The notes beneath the pieces were generated by a model that was given only the letters and a program-made list of their open reading frames with translations, did no database searches and had not been told where the DNA came from. From NCBI GenBank assembly GCA_003212295.1, contig QCQC01000006.1:1-45099 (forward strand): a stretch of DNA of 45,099 nucleotides, given 5' to 3'. Below are positions 21,546 to 45,099 of the stretch, piece by piece (the stretch's first letter is position 1; each line of letters begins with the position of its first letter). This stretch comes from Pelagibacteraceae bacterium AG-447-E22 (GTDB lineage: Bacteria; Pseudomonadota; Alphaproteobacteria; Pelagibacterales; Pelagibacteraceae). The translations under genes were made by a program, and so were the position numbers.

Positions 21546-21620
21546 TTATAATTGAAAAAAATCGATAATGCATTTTTTTTGGGATGTGTTATATTTGTCT
21601 AGATAGTCCTTCTTAGCCAT
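21546..21620 (-). CDS. Possible 24-codon small ORF upstream of the DUF2805-type gene
   Basis: On the minus strand an ATG at 21620 opens a 24-codon frame ending in TAA at 21548-21546; the peptide starts MAKKDYLDKYN and ends IIDFFQL. A GGGAG Shine-Dalgarno match lies about eight bases before the ATG, better than for most genes here, and the stop is seven bases before the ATG of the DUF2805-type gene, so it would be the first cistron of that transcript or a leader ORF. I do not recognise the peptide. The ribosome-binding site and ATG sit in the loop of the inverted repeat at 21601-21649. It could equally be a chance frame. Confidence 0.3.
   Translation of the reverse strand: MAKKDYLDKYNTSQKKCIIDFFQL
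21587..21595 (+). promoter_or_regulatory. Candidate extended -10 element (TGTTATATT) before the hairpin leader
   Basis: TG-N-TATATT at 21587-21595 resembles an extended -10 promoter with +1 near 21602, exactly where the inverted repeat begins. No good -35 box is visible at the usual distance. If real, it would start a transcript of about 57 bases ending in the T-tract just before the LysE-family ATG. Confidence 0.25.
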
Positions 21621-21657
21621 CTTTAGCTCCCGGTTTTTAAGGACTATCTTTTTTTTT
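21601..21657 (+). terminator. Hairpin plus T-tract abutting the LysE-family start codon (terminator or attenuator)
   Basis: AGATAGTCCT (21601-21610) pairs perfectly with AGGACTATCT (21640-21649), and one more T-A pair extends the stem inward. The loop is 28-29 bases. Nine T residues (21649-21657) follow and the ATG of the downstream exporter is at 21660. An intrinsic terminator so close to a start codon suggests transcription attenuation of the exporter, a small RNA with its own terminator, or simply insulation. The unusually large loop argues against a plain terminator. Confidence 0.55.
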
Positions 21658-21659
21658 AT

Positions 21660-22274
21660 ATGCTCCCTTTAGATTTTATCCTTTTTTTACAGATTATAAT
21701 TTTTCTTTTTATAACACCTGGCACACCAAGAGTGGTAATTGTTTCTTATTCCATGAATTATGGAGTTCAAAATTGCGTTTGGACTGCTTTAGGAGATATT
21801 ACTGCTAATTTTATTCAAGCAACTTTAGTAATATTTGTTTTAGGAAGTTTTTTTTCTGACAACTCAACTTTTTTAAATTTTTTTAAGTGGATTGGTGTAA
21901 TTTATTTACTTTATCTAGCTTATGATGTTTATAAGTCTTCACCGAAAGATATAAATTCAAAAATAATTACATCAAAAAGTTTTTTTTCTTTTTTTAAAGA
22001 TGGTTTTTTAGTTGCAGGCACGAGTCCTAAGGCTTGGTTGTTTTTTCCTTTAATATTTCCACAGTTTATTGACTTTAATTCAAATTATATTGTTCAATTT
22101 TTTATTTTAATAACAACTTATATAGTTTTAGATTTTTTATCTTTGATTGGTTATGCATTGCTTGCACAAAAATTAATTCTATGGATAAAAGCAAATCCAA
22201 AAACAATTAATACAATCTCAGCGAGTGTTTTAGTTATTATTGCTGTTATAATTATTGTTACACAACAATATTAG
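21660..22274 (+). CDS. LysE/RhtB-family amino acid exporter
   Basis: A 204-residue membrane protein with about six hydrophobic segments. Visible: FITPGTPRVVIVSYSMNYGVQNC (the PGP-type motif of LysE/RhtB), the GDITANFIQA segment replacing the usual G-x-x-x-G helix, and AGTSPKAWLFFPLIFPQF typical of repeat two. The family exports amino acids or homoserine-type compounds. The start at 21660 is chosen because the hydrophobic first helix begins there, although the T-tract of the upstream hairpin leaves no room for a ribosome-binding site. Substrate unknown. Confidence 0.85.
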   Translation: MLPLDFILFLQIIIFLFITPGTPRVVIVSYSMNYGVQNCVWTALGDITANFIQATLVIFVLGSFFSDNSTFLNFFKWIGVIYLLYLAYDVYKSSPKDINSKIITSKSFFSFFKDGFLVAGTSPKAWLFFPLIFPQFIDFNSNYIVQFFILITTYIVLDFLSLIGYALLAQKLILWIKANPKTINTISASVLVIIAVIIIVTQQY

Positions 22275-34708: not shown

Positions 34709-35902
34709 TTATCTCTGTTTTTTAGTTTTAAATTTTCCGCCTTTTATTTCTTGTTCTAGGAAAGAACCTTCAGCTTCACCGACGCTAGTAAAAGTAACTC
34801 CAGTTGCACCCTCATAGTCAACTTTCTTACCTTTAGCTAATAAGTCTAGAGCTTTTTTAAGTTCACCAGGGTAGATTTTTGTTCCTGGACCATTTGCAAC
34901 ATCCATTACATTTTTTGCAATTGATGCTCTATCCGCTGAATTACCTGCTTGCATTGCTAAAACAATTAAAGCAGCAGCATCATAAGACTCACCTGTATAT
35001 GGGCCAGAACTGTCGATACCAGCAGCACTTGCAACTTTTGAAAATACTCCTGCTCCTTTTCCAGTTGAACCTGGCATTGAACCAAAAGATTTTCTTAGAT
35101 CTTTTCCAAATGCATCAACTAATGATTGTCCGATCATACCATCAGATAAAATAAATTTATCAAATGCACCTGAGTCTAAGGAAGCTTGTATAATTCCTTT
35201 ACCACCTTGGTCTAGATACCCAATTACTGCAACAGCGTCTCCGCCAGCTGATGCTAATGTAGCAACCTCAGAAGAGTAATCAGCTTTTCCATCTTCATGA
35301 GCAGTTACAGTTGTAACTTTAATACCATGAGCTTCTACAGCAGCTTTATAAACATCTGCTAAACCCTTACCATAATCGTTGTTAGTGTAAGTTATAGCAA
35401 CACTTTTAACTCTTCTGTCTTTTGTAATATCTGCAAGAATTTGACCTCCTCTAGCATCTGAAGGAGCTGTTCTAAAGAAATAACCTTTATCATCCAGTGT
35501 AGTTAATCCTGGAGAAGTTGCAGACGGTGAAATCATTACTACACCATTTGGTACAGCAACATTTGATGCAATAGCACCAGTTACACCTGAGCAATCTGCT
35601 CCCATAATTGCAGCTACACCTTGTGCAATCACACCTTCAGCTGCTGCTGTTGCAGCTGCAGAGTCAACACATGTTGAATCTGCTCTTACAGGTTCAATTT
35701 TTTTTCCACCAAGCAATGAACCAGAGTCTGAAGCTTCCTTAAAAGCAAGTTCTGCAGAGGCAGCCATTGCAGGAGTTAGGGACTCAATAGGACCTGTAAA
35801 TCCTAAAATAATCCCCATTTTAATCGAGTGTCCATCAGCCATAGCATTTGTTCCAAAGCTAGAAACAAACATAAATATGGCAATAAATATTTTTCTCATC
35901 AT
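34709..35902 (-). CDS. LIV-type ABC transporter substrate-binding protein (system 2)
   Basis: A 397-residue LivK-type periplasmic binding protein. Signal peptide ending NAMA (about residue 22). Visible: IKMGIILGFTGPIESLTPAMAASAELAFKEA, the CVDSAAATAAAEGVIAQGVAAIMGADCSG stretch with two Cys that may form a disulfide, and AITYTNNDYGKGLADVYK. It is convergent with the LIV-2 genes, so it probably serves that transporter although it is a separate transcript. Two ATGs stand in tandem at the start with GAGGA just upstream. The ligand is unknown. Confidence 0.92.
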   Translation of the reverse strand: MMRKIFIAIFMFVSSFGTNAMADGHSIKMGIILGFTGPIESLTPAMAASAELAFKEASDSGSLLGGKKIEPVRADSTCVDSAAATAAAEGVIAQGVAAIMGADCSGVTGAIASNVAVPNGVVMISPSATSPGLTTLDDKGYFFRTAPSDARGGQILADITKDRRVKSVAITYTNNDYGKGLADVYKAAVEAHGIKVTTVTAHEDGKADYSSEVATLASAGGDAVAVIGYLDQGGKGIIQASLDSGAFDKFILSDGMIGQSLVDAFGKDLRKSFGSMPGSTGKGAGVFSKVASAAGIDSSGPYTGESYDAAALIVLAMQAGNSADRASIAKNVMDVANGPGTKIYPGELKKALDLLAKGKKVDYEGATGVTFTSVGEAEGSFLEQEIKGGKFKTKKQR

Positions 35903-36011: not shown

Positions 36012-37493
36012 TTAACCCATAGTAAAAGGGTCAGACATTGGTTTGTCAGAGGAATTGTACCAGGTAGTTTTAATTCTAGTGTACTCTTTTATTGACTCTA
36101 TACCTGCTTCTTTCCCATAACCACTATCTTTAATTCCTCCGAATGGCGCCATAGGAGATATTAATCTATAAGTATTTATAAAAACTATTCCAGCTCTAAT
36201 AGCTTTTGAAACCCTAAGTCCTCTTGCAAAATTAGAAGTATAAACTCCAGAAGACAAACCATATTTATTATCATTCATTTTTTCAATAACCTCTTCCTCT
36301 TTATTAAATTTCATAACAGATAAAATTGGGCCAAATAATTCATTTTCAGCTACTGGCAAGTTATGATTTTCACACTCGATAATCGTTGCGGGAAAATAAT
36401 AACCTTTGTTTGAAATTGAAGATCTTTTACCTCCACATCTTACCTTTCCACCTTGCTCTATTGTAGCTTTTATATTTTTTTCTATATTTTCTAATTGTTT
36501 TAAACTATTGAGAGGTCCCATTTGAGCACCTTCTTCCATTGGACTTCCCAATTTTATTTTTTCAGCTTTATCAATTAATTTTTTTAAAAAATCTTCATAA
36601 ATTTTTGTATGTAAATAAAGTCTTGATCCAGCTATACAGCTTTGTCCGCTAGCACCAAATATACCTGCAGTAATTCCATTTAAAGCATTTTCTTGATCAG
36701 CATCATCAAAAACCACTACTGGACTTTTACCACCAAGTTCTAAACTAACTTGTGATAAATTTTCTGCAGAATTTTTAACAATATGTTTTGCAGTCTCCGG
36801 CCCACCAGTGAATGCTATTCTTTCTACAAGATTGTGGGTAGTTAATGCCTTACCACAAGGCTCACCTAAACCAGTAATTATATTTATTACCCCTTTTGGT
36901 AATCCTGTTTTATCAACTAATTTTGCAAACTCTAAAAGAGTTACTGGTGCAAGTTCAGAAGCTTTAATCACAACAGTATTTCCCATTGCTAGAGCTGGTG
37001 CAAGTTTAACAGCTGTTAATAACATTTGAGAATTCCAAGGGATAATTGCAGCCACAACACCTATAGGAATTCTTGTTGTTGTAACCTGCATATCTGGTTT
37101 ATCTATGGGAACAACAGTTCCTTCTACTTTGTCAGCTAATCCTGCAAAGTAATCATAATATTCTGCAATATAATTAGCTTGAGTTTTTGTTTCTCTATAA
37201 AGTTTACCAGTATCAATGGTTTCTATTTTTCCAAGATGTTCTGCATTAGCTCTTAGTTGATCAGCGATTAATTTTAAATATTTTGCTCTTTCTCTTGGAT
37301 GAAGTGTAGACCAATTATTTTCAAAAGCTTTTTGAGCTGATTGAACAGCTTTATCAACATCTTTTTCATCAGCCTCAGGAACAGTTGCCCAAATTTCATT
37401 ATTTTCAGGATTTAATGTTTCAATTTTTTTTCCAGAGGATGAATCTACCCATTCACCATTAATATACATTTTAAAATCTTGAATTTTTGACAT
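36012..37493 (-). CDS. NAD(P)-dependent aldehyde dehydrogenase
   Basis: A 493-residue ALDH-superfamily enzyme oxidising an aldehyde to the acid. The active site is complete: N154 in IPWNSQ, K177 in VVIKASE, E252 in SLELGGKSP, and nucleophile C286 in GASGQSCIAGSR. It most resembles betaine-aldehyde/aminoaldehyde-type and 5-carboxymethyl-2-hydroxymuconate semialdehyde-type ALDHs by length and motifs, but the substrate is unknown. Last gene of a minus-strand operon with the hydrolase, DUF1185 and monooxygenase genes; the start codon directly follows the hydrolase stop. Confidence 0.93.
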   Translation of the reverse strand: MSKIQDFKMYINGEWVDSSSGKKIETLNPENNEIWATVPEADEKDVDKAVQSAQKAFENNWSTLHPRERAKYLKLIADQLRANAEHLGKIETIDTGKLYRETKTQANYIAEYYDYFAGLADKVEGTVVPIDKPDMQVTTTRIPIGVVAAIIPWNSQMLLTAVKLAPALAMGNTVVIKASELAPVTLLEFAKLVDKTGLPKGVINIITGLGEPCGKALTTHNLVERIAFTGGPETAKHIVKNSAENLSQVSLELGGKSPVVVFDDADQENALNGITAGIFGASGQSCIAGSRLYLHTKIYEDFLKKLIDKAEKIKLGSPMEEGAQMGPLNSLKQLENIEKNIKATIEQGGKVRCGGKRSSISNKGYYFPATIIECENHNLPVAENELFGPILSVMKFNKEEEVIEKMNDNKYGLSSGVYTSNFARGLRVSKAIRAGIVFINTYRLISPMAPFGGIKDSGYGKEAGIESIKEYTRIKTTWYNSSDKPMSDPFTMG

Positions 37494-38276
37494 TTAATTA
37501 TTAATAAAATTTTTTATTTTCATATTAACATCATCTGCACATTCTATACTACAAAGATGTTTTCCATTTTTAATTTCAATATAAGTAGAATTAACAAGGT
37601 CTTTTACTAATTCTTTAGACATTGCTGGAGTAGAGCCAACATCATCTGAACCAGTCATTACTAAAGTTTTTCTGTCTATCTTTTTAATGGCTTCAAAATC
37701 ATCATAGTGATTAGCAAATAGCTCATAAGCTTTAAGAAAGTTTTTGTGATCCTTCGGTTCTTTATTTAAGATTTTCATAAACAAATCATAAGTTTTTGGA
37801 TTATCCTCAAGATATTTGTCACTAAACCATCTTTTTAAAGCTTGTTTAGATATTGGTTTATTTAATTTTGCTTGATTATATCTATCTAATACAAGTGATC
37901 TTTCCTCATCAGATCTTTTATATGTAGTGCCAATTAATATAAGTTTTTCCACTTTTTTTTGAAAATGAGATGAAAAATCCAATGCAATCAAAGAACCCAA
38001 AGAAAAACCAATAAGATTTATTTTCTCAACTTCCAAATGATCTAAAATTTCTAAAAGTTGATTAGAAAAATCTCTAAGACTAAGTTTGTCCTTATCACAG
38101 GGTGTTTTTCCGTGTCCTAATAAATCATAAGTTAAAGTTGAATATTCATTAAAGTAATTTGTTTGGTAATCCCACATTTGATGATCAACACCTACTCCAT
38201 GGATAAATACAATAGGTATAGAATCTCTTTTATTAAATAAATAATAATTTTGATTTGGATCAAAATTTTGGAACAT
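37494..38276 (-). CDS. Alpha/beta hydrolase
   Basis: A 260-residue alpha/beta-fold hydrolase. Visible: oxyanion-hole strand VFIHGVGVDHQMWD, nucleophile S92 in GFSLGS, acid D211/D212 in MTGSDDVGST and H240 in NGKHLCSIE. The LLGHGKTP motif is as in 3-oxoadipate enol-lactonases and related C-C or ester hydrolases. The reaction is not assignable from sequence. It sits between DUF1185 and the aldehyde dehydrogenase with gaps of four and zero bases, so it likely handles an ester, lactone or C-C bond made by the monooxygenase step. Confidence 0.9.
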   Translation of the reverse strand: MFQNFDPNQNYYLFNKRDSIPIVFIHGVGVDHQMWDYQTNYFNEYSTLTYDLLGHGKTPCDKDKLSLRDFSNQLLEILDHLEVEKINLIGFSLGSLIALDFSSHFQKKVEKLILIGTTYKRSDEERSLVLDRYNQAKLNKPISKQALKRWFSDKYLEDNPKTYDLFMKILNKEPKDHKNFLKAYELFANHYDDFEAIKKIDRKTLVMTGSDDVGSTPAMSKELVKDLVNSTYIEIKNGKHLCSIECADDVNMKIKNFINN

Positions 38277-38280
38277 TAGA

Positions 38281-38868
38281 TTATTTGGGATCTAATCCCA
38301 TTTCTTTCATATCTTGATATCGATCTCCGGTTCTAGCATGAGCCCTTCCGCTTGATGCACCACCAATTGCAATTACAATTTCATTATCAAAAGGAGCATC
38401 ATGAATAGTAAATTCATGAGTTAAATAATACGGCCTCAAACCAGAGTCCGTTTTATGCATCATAGGAATAGATATCTTAGATCCTGCTGGCCCTCTTGTA
38501 TTTGTAAAACTTAAATATGAAGTACCACCAACAGCGTCTCTAAATTTATTCCCAAATCTTAAAGTATGAATAAAGGCAGAGGCATGTTCTATTTCACCAT
38601 TCAATCCTACGGTGCCAGCTTTTCCATAAGCTAAAATTTTTTCAGGTGATCCAACTTCTTTAATTAATTCTGGTACCAATATATCACCAAGTTTTGGAGC
38701 TAAATCTAAAATGATTGGTTTTAAGTCTTCAACAAAACCTTGTCCAGCCCAAGGATTTTTAAAAACAGCTGCTACTGAAACAAGTAAAACTGGTTCCTTA
38801 GCTTCTTTTCCACCTTCAATAAAAGTTTTATCTACAAACTTTGTAAACTTCCTTAATTCAAGATTCAC
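38281..38868 (-). CDS. DUF1185 ('amino acid synthesis') family protein
   Basis: A 195-residue protein that I recognise as DUF1185 from RKFTKFVDKTFIEGGK, KNPWAGQGFVEDL, LNGEIEHASAFIHTLRFGN, PMMHKTDSGLRPYY and the ending ARTGDRYQDMKEMG. The family name 'amino acid synthesis protein' is historical and no reaction is established to my knowledge. The conserved His, Asp and Arg residues suggest an enzyme. Its first base is shared with the last base of the upstream monooxygenase gene. Confidence 0.85.
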   Translation of the reverse strand: MNLELRKFTKFVDKTFIEGGKEAKEPVLLVSVAAVFKNPWAGQGFVEDLKPIILDLAPKLGDILVPELIKEVGSPEKILAYGKAGTVGLNGEIEHASAFIHTLRFGNKFRDAVGGTSYLSFTNTRGPAGSKISIPMMHKTDSGLRPYYLTHEFTIHDAPFDNEIVIAIGGASSGRAHARTGDRYQDMKEMGLDPK

Positions 38869-40034
38869 TAACTGGCTTTCTCTATATCGTCGTTATCAAA
38901 ATTAATTTTAGGTATTACTTCATCATTAAACAGCTTTATACTTCTCATGCAAGCTTTATGGTCTATACCCGGAAAGTTTGACCAAACTTGTAAGTTTTGT
39001 AAGTTCAATTCTGATTTCAATTCATTAATTTTATTAACTACATATTCAGGAGTACCAAATAATAAATTTCTTTTATGTAAAAAATCATAATTAAGAAGAT
39101 CTAATTTATGCTTTGTCTCTGGCAATTCTTCACCTGGATCCATATGATTTCCTAATCCCCTCCAATGACAAACCCATCTCATATAATTTATGATGTGTTC
39201 CCCAGCTAATTTTTCTGCTTCTTCCATAGTTTCTGCAACAAACATATCTCTTACTAAAGAAATTCCTTCACCTAATGGAACATCTCTATTTTCAGCTTTT
39301 GATTTTGCATCTCTGTATATCTCAAATCTTTTCTTCAAAGCTTTAACAGTAGGTATCCACATTATAGTATTAAGACCATTTTGCGCTGCCCATTCTATTG
39401 ATCTTGCACCATCTACCACCTGCCAAATTGGAGGATGAGGCGTTTGTTTTGGTTTTGGAACAATACTTATTTTTTTTATTTCATTTGTTTTTGTATCTAA
39501 AAATTTTTCACTTGGTGGACTCATGTCATGTTGCCAAACAAAGTTTGGTGATGGATAAGTATAAAATTCTCCTTTGTGACTAAAAAATTCCTCAGTCCAA
39601 GCTTTTTTCATTATAGTCAATGTTTCATCAAATAATCTAAAGTTTTTAGCCTGATCTTTAAGGTCAGCTTCTTTATTCATATTTATAGCTTCTCTTCCAT
39701 AGATGCCTCTGCCAATTCCAACTTCGACTCTTCCATTTGATAATTGATCCAATAAAGCTATGTCTTCTGCTAATCTTATTGGGTTATGGAAAGTGATAAC
39801 ATTACAAGCTTGACCTATTCTAATCTGTTTAGTTCTTGCAGCAGCATCAACACCCATCATTAAAGGGTTTGTGCAAGACTCCATTCCTTCATGATTAAAA
39901 TGATGTTCGGTATACCAAATAGAGTTCCAGTTATTTTCATCACAGTAAGTTGTGATCTCTTTGGTTTCATCTAATAATTGATTATAGGGTTTGTGATCCC
40001 AGTTTGTGGTATTGCAAAAATATCCAAATTTCAT
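38868..40034 (-). CDS. Luciferase-like (LLM class) flavin-dependent monooxygenase
   Basis: A 388-residue TIM-barrel flavoenzyme of the bacterial luciferase superfamily. Visible: EHHFNHEGMESCTNPLMMGVDAAARTKQIRIG, LAEDIALLDQLSNGRVEVGIGRGIYGREA and PHPPIWQVVDGARSIEWAAQNGL. Such enzymes use reduced FMN to oxidise organosulfur, alkane, amine or ring compounds; the substrate here is unknown. No flavin reductase is seen nearby. First gene of the minus-strand operon, with a perfect AAGGAGG ribosome-binding site, indicating strong translation. Confidence 0.9.
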   Translation of the reverse strand: MKFGYFCNTTNWDHKPYNQLLDETKEITTYCDENNWNSIWYTEHHFNHEGMESCTNPLMMGVDAAARTKQIRIGQACNVITFHNPIRLAEDIALLDQLSNGRVEVGIGRGIYGREAINMNKEADLKDQAKNFRLFDETLTIMKKAWTEEFFSHKGEFYTYPSPNFVWQHDMSPPSEKFLDTKTNEIKKISIVPKPKQTPHPPIWQVVDGARSIEWAAQNGLNTIMWIPTVKALKKRFEIYRDAKSKAENRDVPLGEGISLVRDMFVAETMEEAEKLAGEHIINYMRWVCHWRGLGNHMDPGEELPETKHKLDLLNYDFLHKRNLLFGTPEYVVNKINELKSELNLQNLQVWSNFPGIDHKACMRSIKLFNDEVIPKINFDNDDIEKAS

Positions 40035-40039
40035 TCTAA

Positions 40040-40046
40040 CCTCCTT
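40040..40046 (-). promoter_or_regulatory. Consensus ribosome-binding site AAGGAGG of the monooxygenase gene
   Basis: The only full AAGGAGG I noticed ahead of a gene here, five bases before the ATG at 40034 (minus strand). It fixes that start. Confidence 0.85.
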
Positions 40047-40133
40047 AAATTATTAAATCTAAGACGATTGATCCCACTTTCGTATTTTTGATAAATATCG
40101 ACGAGTTATGTATCGCTTAATTCAGACTGTAAT

Positions 40134-40162
40134 TTAACTAGACTATTTAATCAATATATATT
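40134..40162 (+). promoter_or_regulatory. Candidate promoter of the EutA-like gene (-35 TTAACT, -10 TATATT)
   Basis: TTAACT (40134-40139) and TATATT (40157-40162) are 17 bp apart, placing +1 near 40169 and the ATG at 40177. Two copies of an 11-base repeat lie in the spacer and across the -10 to +1 region. Confidence 0.4.
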
Positions 40163-40169
40163 TAATCAA
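40144..40169 (+). repeat. Tandem direct repeat TATTTAATCAA, possible operator
   Basis: TATTTAATCAA occurs at 40144-40154 and again at 40159-40169, start-to-start distance 15 bp. The copies bracket the proposed -10 box of the divergent promoter region, where a bound regulator would block transcription of the EutA-like operon. Confidence 0.5.
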
Positions 40170-40176
40170 GCTTTAG

Positions 40177-40920
40177 ATGAAAGTTACTAAATTAGAACCA
40201 AAATTTATTAAAAAGTCAAACCCTAGAATAGGTTTAATTACTTTAGCAAGTGATTTTAGAATCGAAAAAGACTTTAATAATATTATTTATGGAATGGAAA
40301 TAGATTTGTATTCTAATAGAATTAAATCTTACAACCCACTTACCAATGAAACACTAAAAAAAATGGCTGATGATATCACTGATGTAACTAAAGAAATTTT
40401 ACCAGATCAAAAATTGGATTGTGTTGCTTATGGATGCACTTCAGGAACTATTGCTGCAGGATACAAATCTATCTATGATAAAGTCAACTTAGCTAAACCA
40501 AACACTAAAGTTACAACTCCAATAACATCAGCAATTAATGCATTAAATAAATTAAAGATAAAAAAGTTATCAATATTTACTCCCTATACTGATCAAATTA
40601 ATCAATCAGTTATTGAATATTTCAAAAAAGAAAATATCAAAATATCAGAACTATCTTATTTTGATATAGCATCGGATCTAGATATTGGTAAGGTTGATCC
40701 AAACTATTTGTTTGATATTTTAACCCAAAAAGATTTATCCAGTAGTGATGCATTATTTGTTTCATGCACAGCTTTACCAGTTTTATCAATAATTAAAGAG
40801 TTAGAAAAAAAATTAGGAAAGATAGTTCTATCAAGTAATCAGACATTAATTTGGGATACTCTTAAACAAATAGATTGTAAAAATAAAATTGAAGACTACG
40901 GGGAATTATTTAATAATTAA
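40177..40920 (+). CDS. Asp/Glu racemase superfamily protein, EutA/maleate isomerase-like
   Basis: A 247-residue cofactor-independent two-Cys enzyme. Visible: C87 in VAYGCTSGT and C197 in FVSCTALPV, the pair that acts as catalytic bases in maleate cis-trans isomerase, arylmalonate decarboxylase and Asp/Glu racemase, with IGLITLASDF at the start and LSIFTPYTDQIN in the second lobe. EutA of ectoine-utilisation clusters belongs to this group. It precedes an EutD-like gene by two bases, which favours that kinship, but the reaction is not known. Confidence 0.82.
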   Translation: MKVTKLEPKFIKKSNPRIGLITLASDFRIEKDFNNIIYGMEIDLYSNRIKSYNPLTNETLKKMADDITDVTKEILPDQKLDCVAYGCTSGTIAAGYKSIYDKVNLAKPNTKVTTPITSAINALNKLKIKKLSIFTPYTDQINQSVIEYFKKENIKISELSYFDIASDLDIGKVDPNYLFDILTQKDLSSSDALFVSCTALPVLSIIKELEKKLGKIVLSSNQTLIWDTLKQIDCKNKIEDYGELFNN

Positions 40921-40922
40921 TT

Positions 40923-42092
40923 ATGCTTTTTACTAAAGAAGAATATAAACAGAGACTTGATAAAGTTCAAAAGATGATGCAAGAAAAGGGTATTGAACTT
41001 TTAATTTCTCATGACACTAACAATATAAATTATCTAACTGGATATGATGCATGGTCTTTCTATTATGCACAATGTGCTATAGTTCATGTAAATGCAGAGG
41101 AACCAATATGCTTTGTAAGAAAACAAGATGCTGGAGGAGCATTCATAAAATCATATGTCAAAAAAGAAAATATAATTGTTTATGATGAACATTATATTCA
41201 TACTTGGCCAAAACATCCTTATGATTATTTAGTAAAGATAATTAAAGACAAAAAATGGGATAAACTTTCTATTGGTTTAGAAATGGATGCTCATTATTTT
41301 ACGGCATTTTGTTATGAAAAAATTAAACAAGGTTTACCTAATGCAAAGATAAAAGATTCAGATAGGTTAGTTAATTGGGCAAGGTTAGTAAAATCTGATG
41401 CAGAAATAGCCTATATGAAATCTGCCGCAAAAATTTCTGAAATTGGAATGAAAACAGCTTTTGATGTAATCAAACCTGGGGTTAGACAATGTGATGCCGT
41501 TGGAGAAATACAAAAAGCTTTATTTTATGGAACTCCAGAATTTGGAGGAGAATATTCAAGTATTGCAACATTGCTGCCAACTGGAAAAGGGACTTCAGCT
41601 TCTCACTTAACAGCAACACAAGATGAATTTGTTGAAGGTGAAGCAACTATTGTTGAACTTTCAGGAGTTTATAAAAGATATCATGCTCCGATGGCTCGAA
41701 CTGTTTTGTTAGGAAAACCAGATCAATTGAAAATCGATACGATGAAAAAAACAATAGATGCCTTACAAGCAGGTATTGATGCAACAAAACCAGGGAATAC
41801 AGTAGATGATGTGGCACAAGCATTTTGGAAAATATTAGATAAATATGGAATAGAAAAAACATCAAGGACAGGCTATTCAATAGGGATTGGATACCCACCT
41901 GATTGGGGTGAACACACATTGAATATTTATAAAGGTGATATGACACTTTTAGAGTCCAATATTTGCTTCCACATGATTGCGGTGATGCAATTTGGAGATT
42001 GGGGTGTTGAGGCTTCTGAAGCAGTAAGGGTTACAGACAAAGGAGCAGAATTATTCTGTAATATGTCTAAAGAACTTCACGTTAAAAGCTAA
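40923..42092 (+). CDS. M24 'pita-bread' family protein, EutD/creatinase-like
   Basis: A 389-residue protein with a creatinase N-terminal domain (about 5-150) and an M24 catalytic domain (about 160-385). The metal ligands of true metalloaminopeptidases are not conserved: the DxG...SD region reads ELSGVYKRYHAPMAR, so the first Asp is E245 and the second is Pro; the HG-loop reads YSIGIGYPPDWGEH. That pattern is as in creatinase and ectoine hydrolase EutD/DoeA, where I recall a Glu near this position as the nucleophile. Likely hydrolyses a C-N bond of a small cyclic or amidine compound. Followed 51 bp later by the Pot-type transporter. Confidence 0.82.
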   Translation: MLFTKEEYKQRLDKVQKMMQEKGIELLISHDTNNINYLTGYDAWSFYYAQCAIVHVNAEEPICFVRKQDAGGAFIKSYVKKENIIVYDEHYIHTWPKHPYDYLVKIIKDKKWDKLSIGLEMDAHYFTAFCYEKIKQGLPNAKIKDSDRLVNWARLVKSDAEIAYMKSAAKISEIGMKTAFDVIKPGVRQCDAVGEIQKALFYGTPEFGGEYSSIATLLPTGKGTSASHLTATQDEFVEGEATIVELSGVYKRYHAPMARTVLLGKPDQLKIDTMKKTIDALQAGIDATKPGNTVDDVAQAFWKILDKYGIEKTSRTGYSIGIGYPPDWGEHTLNIYKGDMTLLESNICFHMIAVMQFGDWGVEASEAVRVTDKGAELFCNMSKELHVKS

Positions 42093-42143
42093 TTATTAAA
42101 GGTTGAAATTTATTCTTACAAATGTTTTAAAGTTATTTATTTT

Positions 42144-43229
42144 ATGTCAAAACAAAAAGATTTCGTTAAGTTTGAAAATGTAGATAAAAGTTATGACGGT
42201 AAAGTTTTAGTCGTCAAAAACCTTCAATTAGATATTGCCGAAGGTGAGTTTATCACAATGTTAGGACCATCTGGTTCAGGAAAAACTACATGCTTAATGA
42301 TGTTAGCTGGATTTGAAACTCCAACTAATGGAGAAATTTACTTAGGCGGAAGAGCAATTTCAAGTATACCTCCACACAAAAGAGGAATTGGAATGGTATT
42401 CCAAAACTATGCTTTATTTCCACACATGACAGTTTATGAAAATTTAGCATTCCCATTAAGAGTTAGAAAAATTCCAAAAGATGAAGCTGACAAAAAGATT
42501 GATAAAGCATTGTCTATGGTATCGCTCCAAGGTTTTGCATCAAGAATGCCAGGACAATTATCAGGAGGACAACAGCAAAGGGTAGCAGTTGCAAGATCAT
42601 TAGTATTTGATCCACAGTTAGTTTTAATGGATGAACCTCTAGGTGCATTAGATAAAAATTTAAGAGAAAGTATGCAATATGAAATTAAACATATTCATGA
42701 AAGTATTGGTGTTACTGTAGTGTATGTAACACATGATCAAAGTGAAGCTTTAACGATGTCAAATCGTATAGCAGTATTTAATGACGGAAAGGTTCAACAA
42801 CTCTCAAGTCCCGATGAACTATATGAAAAACCAGTTAATTCATTTGTTGCTGAATTTATTGGAGAAAATAATACATTTAACGGTGAAGTTTCAGATATAT
42901 CGGGTGGAAAATGCAAAGTAAAATTATCTAACGCTGAAATAACTGCTAATCCAATTTCTGTTAAGTCCAAAGGTGAGAGGACTAAAGTTTCATTAAGACC
43001 TGAAAGAGCTTTAATTAATCCTAAAGATAAAATGGACAACATCCATAATGGTAAAATCGAAGAAGTCATTTACCACGGCGACCACACAAGAGTAAGAATA
43101 AATCTTTTAGGAAATCCAGAATTTATTCTTAAAGTCCCTAATAGTTCAGCAAACCTTGACATCAAGCTTGGCAATGAGATCAAGATTGGATGGAATAGTG
43201 AGGATGCTAGAGCTCTTGACCCAAAATAA
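42144..43229 (+). CDS. potA: Pot-type ABC transporter ATPase
   Basis: A 361-residue ABC ATPase of the polyamine/opine class. Walker A GPSGSGKT at 41-48, Q-loop GMVFQNYALFPHMTVYENLAFPL, signature LSGGQQQRVAVARSL, Walker B LVLMDEPLGALDKNLRE, H-loop VYVTHDQSEALTMS, and a C-terminal TOBE domain (about 280-355) with SLRPERALINP. It is the ATPase of the importer whose binding protein and permease follow. The symbol denotes subunit type; the substrate is not proven to be a polyamine. Confidence 0.93.
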   Translation: MSKQKDFVKFENVDKSYDGKVLVVKNLQLDIAEGEFITMLGPSGSGKTTCLMMLAGFETPTNGEIYLGGRAISSIPPHKRGIGMVFQNYALFPHMTVYENLAFPLRVRKIPKDEADKKIDKALSMVSLQGFASRMPGQLSGGQQQRVAVARSLVFDPQLVLMDEPLGALDKNLRESMQYEIKHIHESIGVTVVYVTHDQSEALTMSNRIAVFNDGKVQQLSSPDELYEKPVNSFVAEFIGENNTFNGEVSDISGGKCKVKLSNAEITANPISVKSKGERTKVSLRPERALINPKDKMDNIHNGKIEEVIYHGDHTRVRINLLGNPEFILKVPNSSANLDIKLGNEIKIGWNSEDARALDPK

Positions 43230-43268
43230 GCATCTTAGAATTATTATAGAATAAGTAAAAAAGGGCTG

Positions 43269-43297
43269 TTGACTCTGACCCCTGAAGTTGTTTTAAT
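43269..43297 (+). promoter_or_regulatory. Strong promoter match before the Pot-type binding-protein gene
   Basis: TTGACT (43269-43274), 17-bp spacer, TTTAAT (43292-43297), the best -35/-10 pair in the window. +1 falls near 43304. The palindrome CGTTTAAACG (43311-43320) lies just downstream and could be an operator. Confidence 0.6.
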
Positions 43298-43310
43298 TTG
43301 TTTTTACAAA

Positions 43311-43320
43311 CGTTTAAACG
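43311..43320. repeat. Palindrome CGTTTAAACG in the potD leader
   Basis: A perfect 10-bp palindrome between the predicted transcription start and the GGAGG ribosome-binding site (43320-43324). It could be a repressor site; as RNA it has no loop and would not fold alone. Confidence 0.35.
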
Positions 43321-43328
43321 GAGGAAAA

Positions 43329-44456
43329 ATGAAAAAACTTAGTAAAATATTACTAGCTATTTCTTTTGTACTTTCACTAACTACTTCAGCATTTGCAACA
43401 ACAGTAACTGCAGTGTCTTGGGGTGGGGCTTATACTGAGTCTCAAAAGTTAGGTTATGGTGATCCAACTGCTAAAAAACTAGGCATTAACATTGCTTGGG
43501 TTGATTATTCAGGTGGTTTATCAGAAATCAAAGCACAAAAAGAAGCTGGTAAGATCACGTGGGATATAATCGACGTGTTCGCGATGGATACTATCACTGG
43601 ATGTGATGAAGGATTATTTGTTGAATTTGATTTTGACAAAGACTTCCCACCAGCTCCAGATGGAACTCCAGCAAGTAAAGATTTCTTTACTGCAATGCCA
43701 AGTAAATGTGCTGTAGGAAATATTTTATATTCTTGGAACTACGCTTATAACACTAACAATGTTAAAGGTACTCCAAAGACTATCAAAGATTTCTTTAACA
43801 CAAAGAAATTCCCTGGAAAAAGAGCTATCTACAAAAGCGCTTTAACTAATTTAGAGATCGCTTTAGCTGCAGATGGTATTAAGCCAGGAAAAGGCGGAGC
43901 AAAAATCTATAAAGCTTTAAACACAGAAAAAGGTGTTGAAAGAGCAATGAACAAGATCAAAGAACTTTGCACAGACCCTAACGGTGGATGTGTATTTTGG
44001 TCTGCAGGTGCTCAACCACCAGAACTGTTAGTATCAGGTGAAGTAGTAATGGCTACTGGTTGGAATGGTAGATTCTTCAATGCAGAAATTGGAGAAGGTG
44101 CACCAATCAAACAAGTTTGGGACGGCCAAGGTCTTGACTACGAATATTTCGTACAAGTTAAAGGTGGACCAAACGATGCTAATGGTATGGCTAAAAAAGC
44201 TTTAGCTATGATGACTAGTTCAGAGATGTTAGCAGGAAGTGCGAAATACATCGCATATGCTCCTTGGAGAAAATCTTCTATAGGAATTATGGAAGCAGGG
44301 GAGCCTTGGTATAAAGATGGTAAAACTAATATGGTACCACAAATGCCAACTGCACCAGCTAACACTAAAAACTACTTCTTAGTAGATCCAATTTTCTGGG
44401 CTGATAACGGAACAGAGCTTGGTGAAAAATGGGAAGCTATGAAAGCTGGTCTATAA
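43329..44456 (+). CDS. potD: Pot-type ABC transporter substrate-binding protein
   Basis: A 375-residue periplasmic binding protein of the PotD/PotF type. I place the start at 43329: GGAGG lies just upstream and a clean signal peptide begins there (MKKLSKILLAISFVLSLTTSAFA). The same frame extends back to 43269 but those codons overlap the promoter. Visible: VSWGGAYTESQ, DYSGGLSEIKAQKEAGKITWDIID, SWNYAYNTNN and ARCH-like MPTAPANTKNYFLVD. Four Cys in the mature part may pair. Closest in type to 'extracellular solute-binding protein' of putative spermidine/putrescine systems; the true ligand is unknown. Followed by a strong terminator. Confidence 0.9.
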   Translation: MKKLSKILLAISFVLSLTTSAFATTVTAVSWGGAYTESQKLGYGDPTAKKLGINIAWVDYSGGLSEIKAQKEAGKITWDIIDVFAMDTITGCDEGLFVEFDFDKDFPPAPDGTPASKDFFTAMPSKCAVGNILYSWNYAYNTNNVKGTPKTIKDFFNTKKFPGKRAIYKSALTNLEIALAADGIKPGKGGAKIYKALNTEKGVERAMNKIKELCTDPNGGCVFWSAGAQPPELLVSGEVVMATGWNGRFFNAEIGEGAPIKQVWDGQGLDYEYFVQVKGGPNDANGMAKKALAMMTSSEMLAGSAKYIAYAPWRKSSIGIMEAGEPWYKDGKTNMVPQMPTAPANTKNYFLVDPIFWADNGTELGEKWEAMKAGL

Positions 44457-44493
44457 TTTAAGTTTTATTAAACTTAATTATATATTATAATTT

Positions 44494-44524
44494 AAGGGCG
44501 GTTATTTATAACCGCCCTTTTTAT
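44494..44524 (+). terminator. Intrinsic terminator between Pot-type binding protein and permease
   Basis: AAGGGCGGTTAT (44494-44505) and ATAACCGCCCTT (44508-44519) form a perfect inverted repeat with a very GC-rich base for this genome, followed by TTTTTA. It ends two to three bases before the ATG of the permease at 44527, so it separates the binding-protein gene from the rest of the operon. Confidence 0.92.
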
Positions 44525-44526
44525 TT

Positions 44527-45099
44527 ATGAGCTCAGAAACAAAACAAATTTTAACAACAGACGGAATACCTTTAGAGGTAAGTCTTAAAAAAGCAGAGAG
44601 AAAGAATAAGATCAAAGCTTTCCTATTAGTCGCTCCTTTATTATTTTTTTTAATCATTACTTATGTATTTCCAATAGGTGATATGTTGTTCAGAAGTGTT
44701 GATGATAAAATGGTTACACAAATGCTTCCAAAAACTTTCAAAGCAATGGAAACATGGGATGGAAAAGAATTACCTGATGAAGAAGTTTTTGCTGCTTTTC
44801 ATGAGGACTTTATAAAACTCGTTGAAGATAAACGAGAAGGTAAATTATCTACTCAATTAAATTACACAAAGAACGGCTTCAAAAGTATTATTAAAAAATT
44901 AAGAAGAGCATCTAAAAAATTTGAAGAGGGAAATTATAAAGAACAAATAATGTCAGTGCATAAACGATGGGCTGACGTTGAGTACTGGAGAGCAATTCAA
45001 AGAAGAGCTCCTGAATTTACAGGTCAAAAATATCTAAAAGGAATGGATATGTATGTAAATGAGGAGGGAAAGATAGTAAGTGTTGAGGAAGACAGAAGA
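44527..45099 (+). CDS. potB: Pot-type ABC transporter permease (PotB-like), 5' part only
   Basis: The first 191 codons of a permease gene cut by the window end. Visible: a cytoplasmic N-terminus, a first membrane helix at about 31-50 (AFLLVAPLLFFLIITYVFPIG), the DMLFRSV motif that follows TM1 in PotB-type permeases, then a long charged helical segment (about 55-191) with no further membrane span before the cut. In ordinary PotB the second helix comes much sooner, so this is the subgroup with a large periplasmic insert between TM1 and TM2, which I recall from other alphaproteobacteria. Confidence 0.8.
   Translation, partial: MSSETKQILTTDGIPLEVSLKKAERKNKIKAFLLVAPLLFFLIITYVFPIGDMLFRSVDDKMVTQMLPKTFKAMETWDGKELPDEEVFAAFHEDFIKLVEDKREGKLSTQLNYTKNGFKSIIKKLRRASKKFEEGNYKEQIMSVHKRWADVEYWRAIQRRAPEFTGQKYLKGMDMYVNEEGKIVSVEEDRR

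Follow-up and report, generated by a model that had tools for sequence, protein, structure and literature searches.

A conserved RNA leader and an accessory, probably catabolic cassette beside a EutA-EutD-Pot operon in SAR11 bacteria

Homarine and trigonelline are N-methylated pyridine carboxylates, solutes of which SAR11 bacteria are very abundant consumers, and luciferase-like (LLM) flavin monooxygenases open several N-heterocycles. The homarine study of Ferrer-Gonzalez et al. 2026 (Nat Microbiol 11:1531) reportedly lists the genes homABCDER and a hom operon in SAR11, and the trigonelline (tgn) pathway of Acinetobacter baylyi, the subject of Perchat et al. 2018, is said to comprise a flavin monooxygenase, an aldehyde dehydrogenase (ALDH) and a hydrolase. 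We take DUF1185, hydrolase, LLM and ALDH proteins to be hom families, with a flavin reductase presumably required as well; to our knowledge DUF1185 is not known from tgn. Here we compare with these systems a locus of Pelagibacteraceae bacterium AG-447-E22 on contig QCQC01000006.1 (45,099 nucleotides, analysed whole and called the window; the genome is 67.7% complete). Its minus-strand arm encodes LLM, DUF1185, hydrolase and ALDH proteins, its plus-strand arm EutA-like and EutD-like proteins and a Pot-type importer, and an RNA leader lies between them. For importers of the latter type, PMC8437039 assigns polyamine uptake to SAR11 PotABCD, with transport still to be validated according to its authors.

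Judged by gene order across relatives, the locus is a widespread SAR11 operon (EutA-EutD-PotA-PotD-PotB-PotC, then a FadB-like gene) together with an accessory cassette (leader-LLM-DUF1185-hydrolase-ALDH). We sampled 101 genomes, that of the window plus 100 relatives, many of them incomplete. DUF1185 (PF06684), used as the marker of the minus arm, occurs in 38 of them and a full-length EutD-like gene, counted as such above 500 bits, in 83. Both are found in 29 genomes, the EutD-like gene only in 54, DUF1185 only in 9 and neither in 9. The arms, which the sequence-only reading had taken for one pathway with its own transporter, are thus separable. This is further supported by four relatives (loci L225, L226, L227 and L239) in which the site is empty: LivK faces EutA directly with no cassette, downstream of EutA come EutD-PotA-PotD-PotB-PotC and a FadB-like protein of 740 residues (a match made on the L232 copy), and Liv genes lie on the far side of LivK from EutA. 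The comparison of neighbourhoods proposed by that reading therefore finds the arms independent in relatives, and a single pathway does not hold in general. The window's cassette sits at this LivK/EutA junction, a space that elsewhere contains glycosyltransferase-like and other genes (L022), a 653-residue gene (L237) or a 1505-residue gene (L045).

The features of the locus in the window are:
34709-35902, minus strand: LivK-type binding protein, which adjoins EutA in loci lacking the cassette (order in L225, L226, L227, L239)
36012-37493, minus strand: ALDH of the cassette (Aldedh, 542.6 bits)
37494-38276, minus strand: alpha/beta hydrolase of the cassette (Abhydrolase_1, 78 bits)
38281-38868, minus strand: DUF1185 / AA_synth (PF06684) protein (214.6 bits)
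38868-40034, minus strand: LLM flavin monooxygenase, cassette gene 1 (Bac_luciferase, 153.8 bits)
40040-40125, minus strand: conserved structured RNA leader, predicted to form an outer helix P1, a conserved internal loop, P2 and an alternative Shine-Dalgarno hairpin (model R1, 95.7 bits)
40126-40154, minus strand: putative promoter TTGATT-17-TACAGT, immediately before the leader (read from the sequence)
40177-40920, plus strand: EutA-like Asp/Glu racemase-family protein with two Cys (TIGR02990, 189 bits, below the cut-off of 318; Amdase, 70 bits)
40923-42092, plus strand: EutD/DoeA-like M24 hydrolase (TIGR02993, 453.9 bits, below the cut-off of 613)
42144-43229, plus strand: PotA-type ATPase (TIGR01187, 377.7 bits, above the cut-off of 355.6)
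43329-44456, plus strand: PotD-type binding protein (SBP_bac_8, 85.2 bits; nearest solved chain 8jv1, E 3e-178); ATG at 43329, searches used the start at 43326, one residue longer
44527-45099, plus strand: PotB permease, an open reading frame (ORF) cut off at 45099 because the window is the whole contig; the fragment has no Pfam match, full-length relatives are in L030 and L031

The ORFs lie where the sequence-only reading had placed them, and Pfam and TIGRFAM matches agree with its families. Its spacings also stand, with -1, 4 and 0 bases between LLM, DUF1185, hydrolase and ALDH in the ORF list and a divergent gap of 142 bp (40035-40176) between the arms. Comparison of sequences shows separability and family membership and, as described below, the recurrence of the operon, the conservation of the leader and compensatory changes within it.

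A DUF1185 query, with 473 confirmed relatives, gave 80 SAR11 loci among the matches listed (L040-L119). Where at least 2 kb are available downstream (69 loci), ALDH is present in 69/69 and the hydrolase in 68/69. The four-gene order recurs across SAR11 loci, consistent with the earlier view of the minus arm as a catabolic cassette, for which a cyclic nitrogenous solute remains plausible. By type, 59 of the 80 cassettes are type A (no thiamine diphosphate (ThDP) enzyme; LLM identity to the window's 90% or more) and 20 are type B (ThDP enzyme before DUF1185; LLM about 78% identical to the window's where visible), while one could not be typed. The named isolate HTCC9565 carries the cassette (L088). 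Full separation of the arms is opposed by the type A loci: where the upstream side is visible, 44 of 52 have the cassette divergent from EutA at a distance of no more than 330 bp, compared with only 1 of 18 for type B. The pairing of cassette and EutA is thus stable in the window's lineage, and to this extent the single-pathway reading retains a basis. Type B cassettes have a similar run of gene sizes upstream in 9 of the 20 loci. This run, examined in L092 and L321, includes a EutQ-like cupin, in L092 a Rieske protein (a match to the glycine-betaine GbcA model, though far short of the cut-off), a type-III glutamine-synthetase-like protein (below cut-off) and a MetX-like hydrolase, and in L321 a glyoxalase. 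Two further genes were seen near DUF1185 or LLM: a 209-residue gene between the ThDP enzyme and DUF1185 in type B loci L315, L317, L324, L325 and L326, methyltransferase-like in L317, and a 168-residue gene with no Pfam match upstream of LLM in sister-family loci (L034:13167-13673, minus strand), which adjoins a PdxH-like gene in L035.

The RNA leader is the most interesting feature of the locus; it is new relative to Rfam 15, where no family matches it. The sequence-only reading had described the 142-bp gap as a shared control region, of which the gap itself stands, and what it holds is this leader, on the minus strand (86 nt in the window, about 70-105 nt overall). It was found by comparing the stretches upstream of LLM and is common to both cassette types, whether beside EutA or not. 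The consensus reads AAAGCGA-UACAUAACUC-(hairpin of variable length)-AAGYGGGAUC-RRUCGUCUUU, followed by the Shine-Dalgarno region. In L040-L119 the leader is present at all 71 loci where 130 nt or more are available upstream of LLM, the remaining 9 of 80 being not judgeable. With the model R1, built from 33 leaders (alignment A3), we found it in 137 of 397 Pelagibacterales genomes, 135 of which carry a single copy and 2 a pair; under stricter filters, the more complete genomes have it in 48 of 151. When 385 genomes sampled across the class were scanned, again with stricter filters, it appeared solely in the window's own genome. LLM is directly downstream in 30/30 loci L280-L309 (29 by script, L290 by reading) and follows 19 of the 21 matches in L310-L329, the exceptions being, in L311, a partial copy next to EutA and, in L310, the first copy of a pair. 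Extra or partial copies (L119:8422-8463; L310:2159-2239; L311:1799-1860) are perhaps remnants of cassette moves. No leader was found in eight plasmid operons, in L205 (both described below) or in the four empty-site loci, and two exact patterns found none in viral contigs. Rfam 15 gave no match to the leader at gathering thresholds, nor at E 10 for 39950-40250 (no literature search on the leader was made).

Paired positions in the leader change together. In alignment A4, of 72 distinct rows, the listed positions are 90.0% paired, and both sides have changed in 27 cells compared with 8.8 in shuffles, with 0 of 500 shuffles reaching 27; in A3 the numbers are 13 and 6.0. P1 shows compensatory changes in A4 from AU to UA (15 rows at one pair, a single row at another) and from CG to AU (1 row). 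The Shine-Dalgarno hairpin has 21 such cells versus 13.6 in shuffles (0/500 reaching), spread over three pairs with 10, 10 and 1 rows. P1 and this hairpin share four bases (A3 columns 84-88), so the two predicted folds would be mutually exclusive. Of the 33 rows, 15 retain every listed pair in either fold, and in these the energies of the listed pairs lie 0 to 1.4 kcal/mol apart; the other 18 lack pairs in at least one fold, most have a positive energy for at least one, and they are little informative. From these alignments the leader is a conserved structured element before a metabolic gene and a candidate translational riboswitch, the mode of control that we consider most likely. The 3' strand of P1 (CUUU) would double as the 5' strand of a hairpin covering the start of the Shine-Dalgarno sequence, of which the stem takes in only the first part, and a ligand stabilising P1 would then free LLM translation; this ON direction, like the ligand, we infer. 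The leader resembles Rfam 15 riboswitches in being a short element by the Shine-Dalgarno sequence with alternative hairpins, here predicted, but differs in matching no family.

Outside SAR11, the DUF1185 query matched 388 plasmid records, from which eight loci were opened. All eight cluster DUF1185, hydrolase, flavin reductase, LLM and ALDH, with a GntR gene nearby in six and another helix-turn-helix (HTH) gene in two. Their neighbours include a BCCT transporter (Thioclava), a 'cytosine permease' (Chimaeribacter, Pantoea), ProXWV (Agrobacterium), an ATP-binding cassette (ABC) importer with succinate-semialdehyde dehydrogenase (SSADH) (Rhizobium etli, Sinorhizobium meliloti) and an amino-acid ABC importer (R. 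leguminosarum); no clear transporter-type neighbour was noted at the Leisingera plasmid operon. The pSymA copy of S. meliloti lies a few kb from nodL and noeA, and we take the trigonelline catabolism genes of this species to be located in its symbiotic region. Among the regions read, the set closest to the SAR11 cassette belongs to another alphaproteobacterium (L205), in the order flavin reductase-LLM-DUF1185-hydrolase-ALDH; its LLM is 55-56% and its DUF1185 62% identical to the window's, and it adjoins a Rieske protein, a LysR regulator and a DAO-family oxidase. The window's DUF1185 shares 54% identity with the Agrobacterium and 56% with the Leisingera operon copy, and 57-60% with Rhizobium and Paraburkholderia plasmid copies. 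Entries of its solved relatives 2qtp and 3byq give no function, and its predicted structure model is poor, with a mean pLDDT (predicted local distance difference test) of 55.8. ALDH is 50% identical to that of the Leisingera DUF1185 operon (41-50% across the operons compared). The alpha/beta hydrolase is 24% and 30% identical to hydrolases from two non-SAR11 operons, and its nearest curated model is the PcaD enol-lactonase (128.6 bits, below the cut-off of 255.85).

Based on these comparisons the cassette probably cleaves the ring of an N-methylated pyridine carboxylate, with homarine the likeliest substrate and trigonelline second. This substrate class is suggested by the fit of the enzyme set and by the occurrence of betaine transporters and Rieske proteins in the vicinity of related sets. 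We favour homarine over trigonelline because it is reported to be abundant in the sea; the other reason is the hom operon that SAR11 is said to carry. The LLM monooxygenase would open the N-methylated pyridine-carboxylate betaine, ALDH would oxidise the aldehyde arising from ring opening, the alpha/beta hydrolase would cut an N-acyl or lactone intermediate and DUF1185 may perform a ring or isomer step; both the substrate and this order of steps we infer. In likeness to the hom operon, the enzymes of the plasmid GntR/DUF1185-hydrolase-flavin reductase-LLM-ALDH operons match its count of five plus a regulator, and the SAR11 cassette holds four of the families together. It differs in having neither flavin reductase nor GntR, a distant LLM, the RNA leader instead and, in type B, a ThDP enzyme. 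Among the ORFs of the 80 listed loci, none matches two plasmid-operon flavin reductases, nor do any match the GntR or HTH reference proteins of those operons (other regulators were not sought). With tgn the cassette has the flavin monooxygenase, ALDH and hydrolase in common, and SSADH lies near the R. etli and S. meliloti operons, but the window's cassette is without it. Tentatively, SAR11 may have swapped the protein regulator of a homarine-type operon for a new riboswitch class that binds homarine or an early intermediate and turns on LLM translation, an idea that could well prove wrong.

The element before LLM might instead be a DNA operator for a distant transcription factor. It has two blocks of strongly conserved sequence to which a protein might bind, and the folding energy of the single strand is unremarkable (z from -1.51 to 0.19 in the 8 of 33 leaders folded). 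Further results weigh against the RNA switch. A4 was fitted to the structure; in it four of the seven pairs of P1 are not formed in 10-19% of rows, nor is the innermost pair listed for P2 in 21/72. RNAalifold on A3 recovers P2 with an inner extension but not P1, with a consensus energy of -1.27. Shuffles reach the observed number of further pair types in 312/500 (A3) and 215/500 (A4) cases, and that of pairs with a change on both sides in 83/500 (A3), 16/500 (A4) and 85/500 (Shine-Dalgarno hairpin), and this hairpin slid by +1 is still 79.2% paired. The mean promoter score only slightly exceeds that of shuffles (9.48 vs 9.17), and in 18 of 74 leaders the best promoter match ends 32-33 nt before P1. 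However, the spacing of the blocks varies from 11 to 40 nt in 78 aligned copies, which is hard to reconcile with one protein, and P2 pairs change on both sides (A4: UA to CG in 6 rows, GC to AU in 1, UA to AU in 3). In 61% of the 74 leaders, versus 32% in shuffles, a promoter-like -10 lies no more than 14 nt ahead of P1, and because it often ends 5-8 nt before P1 (38/74) the element would be placed in the transcript. The putative promoter of the window ties in score with a candidate farther upstream, which the scan reported instead; promoter-like sites stand at similar positions in many other loci. With, in addition, no ORF of the 80 listed loci matching the plasmid-operon flavin reductase, GntR or HTH proteins, the only regulators sought being those of these operons, we regard a DNA operator as unlikely.

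As to the substrate, the cassette could degrade another heterocycle, a pyridine, imidazole or pyrimidine derivative. The breadth of LLM enzymes on N-heterocycles would allow this, the 'cytosine permease' genes beside two of the eight plasmid operons point the same way, and the split into two cassette types (LLMs about 78% identical, ThDP enzyme optional) hints at more than a single substrate. Three observations speak against homarine itself: the SAR11 LLM is only 26-27% identical to both plasmid-operon LLMs compared (DUF1185 54-56%, ALDH 41-50%), no flavin reductase (PF01613) was found in the window's 67.7% complete genome, and second, weak SoxG copies have no evident link with DUF1185 (by eye only, no statistical test). 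The BCCT and ProXWV betaine-type transporters and the Rieske proteins near related sets argue for a betaine, and another heterocycle appears rather doubtful. N-methylglutamate dehydrogenase (Mgd), which takes part in homarine catabolism according to PMC13390433, a paper that cites the homarine study, was tried as a marker of homarine use and rejected; SoxG matches are present in 88/101 genomes, and two complexes of sarcosine-oxidase type, which may be Mgd or sarcosine oxidase, are encoded in the complete genome G012. A single ectoine-like pathway across both arms, as proposed earlier, is quite improbable. The EutA and EutD families are present, as in the ectoine eut/doe clusters of PMC13188858, and the divergent pairing is stable in the window's cassette type. 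In contrast to those clusters, both proteins score below the curated cut-offs, and no EutB or EutC match was found among ten window proteins scanned. No DoeB2-like deacetylase above 30 bits occurs in 37 same-genus genomes, many of them incomplete (DoeB2 model only), compared with 23 of 24 in the sister family, and the arms are found apart in relatives. An ectoine pathway for the whole locus was thus rejected, in line with the doubt about plain ectoine use voiced from the sequence alone. Taken as a whole, two separable units, with ring cleavage of an N-methylpyridine carboxylate by the cassette and a translational riboswitch as its leader, provide the best explanation, one we consider reasonably probable.

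In the plus arm, both Cys motifs of the EutA-like protein are present (GCTSG, SCTAL). The EutD-like protein matches the ectoine hydrolase 6twk with 338 bits and conserves in the alignment a Glu that we take to be the catalytic nucleophile Glu255 of EutD. PotD scores 596 bits to PDB 8jv1-8jv4, titled spermidine/putrescine-binding protein, for which a literature search found no paper. Its next-nearest solved chains are two without a stated ligand, MotA, a gamma-aminobutyric acid (GABA) sensor, 4eq7 (labelled polyamine) and agropine and mannopine binders; no entry named E. coli PotD or PotF is among its solved relatives at E 10. The PotD-type gene is single in 10 of 12 genomes searched and absent from two, and an agmatinase (239.2 bits, above the cut-off of 174.3) and an aldehyde dehydrogenase are encoded near the operon in L232. 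The transporter of the EutA-EutD-Pot operon is probably the one termed the polyamine importer in cultured SAR11, the PotABCD of PMC8437039, to which the single gene and the L232 neighbours correspond; the GABA sensor and opine binders among PotD's relatives, besides the polyamine-labelled 4eq7, are the point of difference.

The sister family has its own arrangements. A deacetylase-sized gene stands close before EutD in L028, L228, L229, L231 and L240, and is M20-family or DoeB2-like in L028, L228, L231 and L240. A Rieske oxygenase accompanies the EutD-M20 set in L228 and L028, and a diaminopropionate ammonia-lyase-like gene with EutA is found in L028 and L231, a fuller ectoine-like set. In G004 (L233:10096-14328) a EutA-EutD pair without adjacent Pot genes faces a thiolase and a gene above the cut-off of the dimethylsulfoniopropionate (DMSP) demethylase model. 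Apart from this locus, the window contains a match to the Rfam rhtB small RNA (RF01814, 83.7 bits, 21584-21666, plus strand).

For SAR11 biology, the cassette is a possible genomic marker of which of these bacteria can use the solute. The leader would be a small RNA element that could report the presence of the solute, and together they would make uptake and control testable in the field and in culture.

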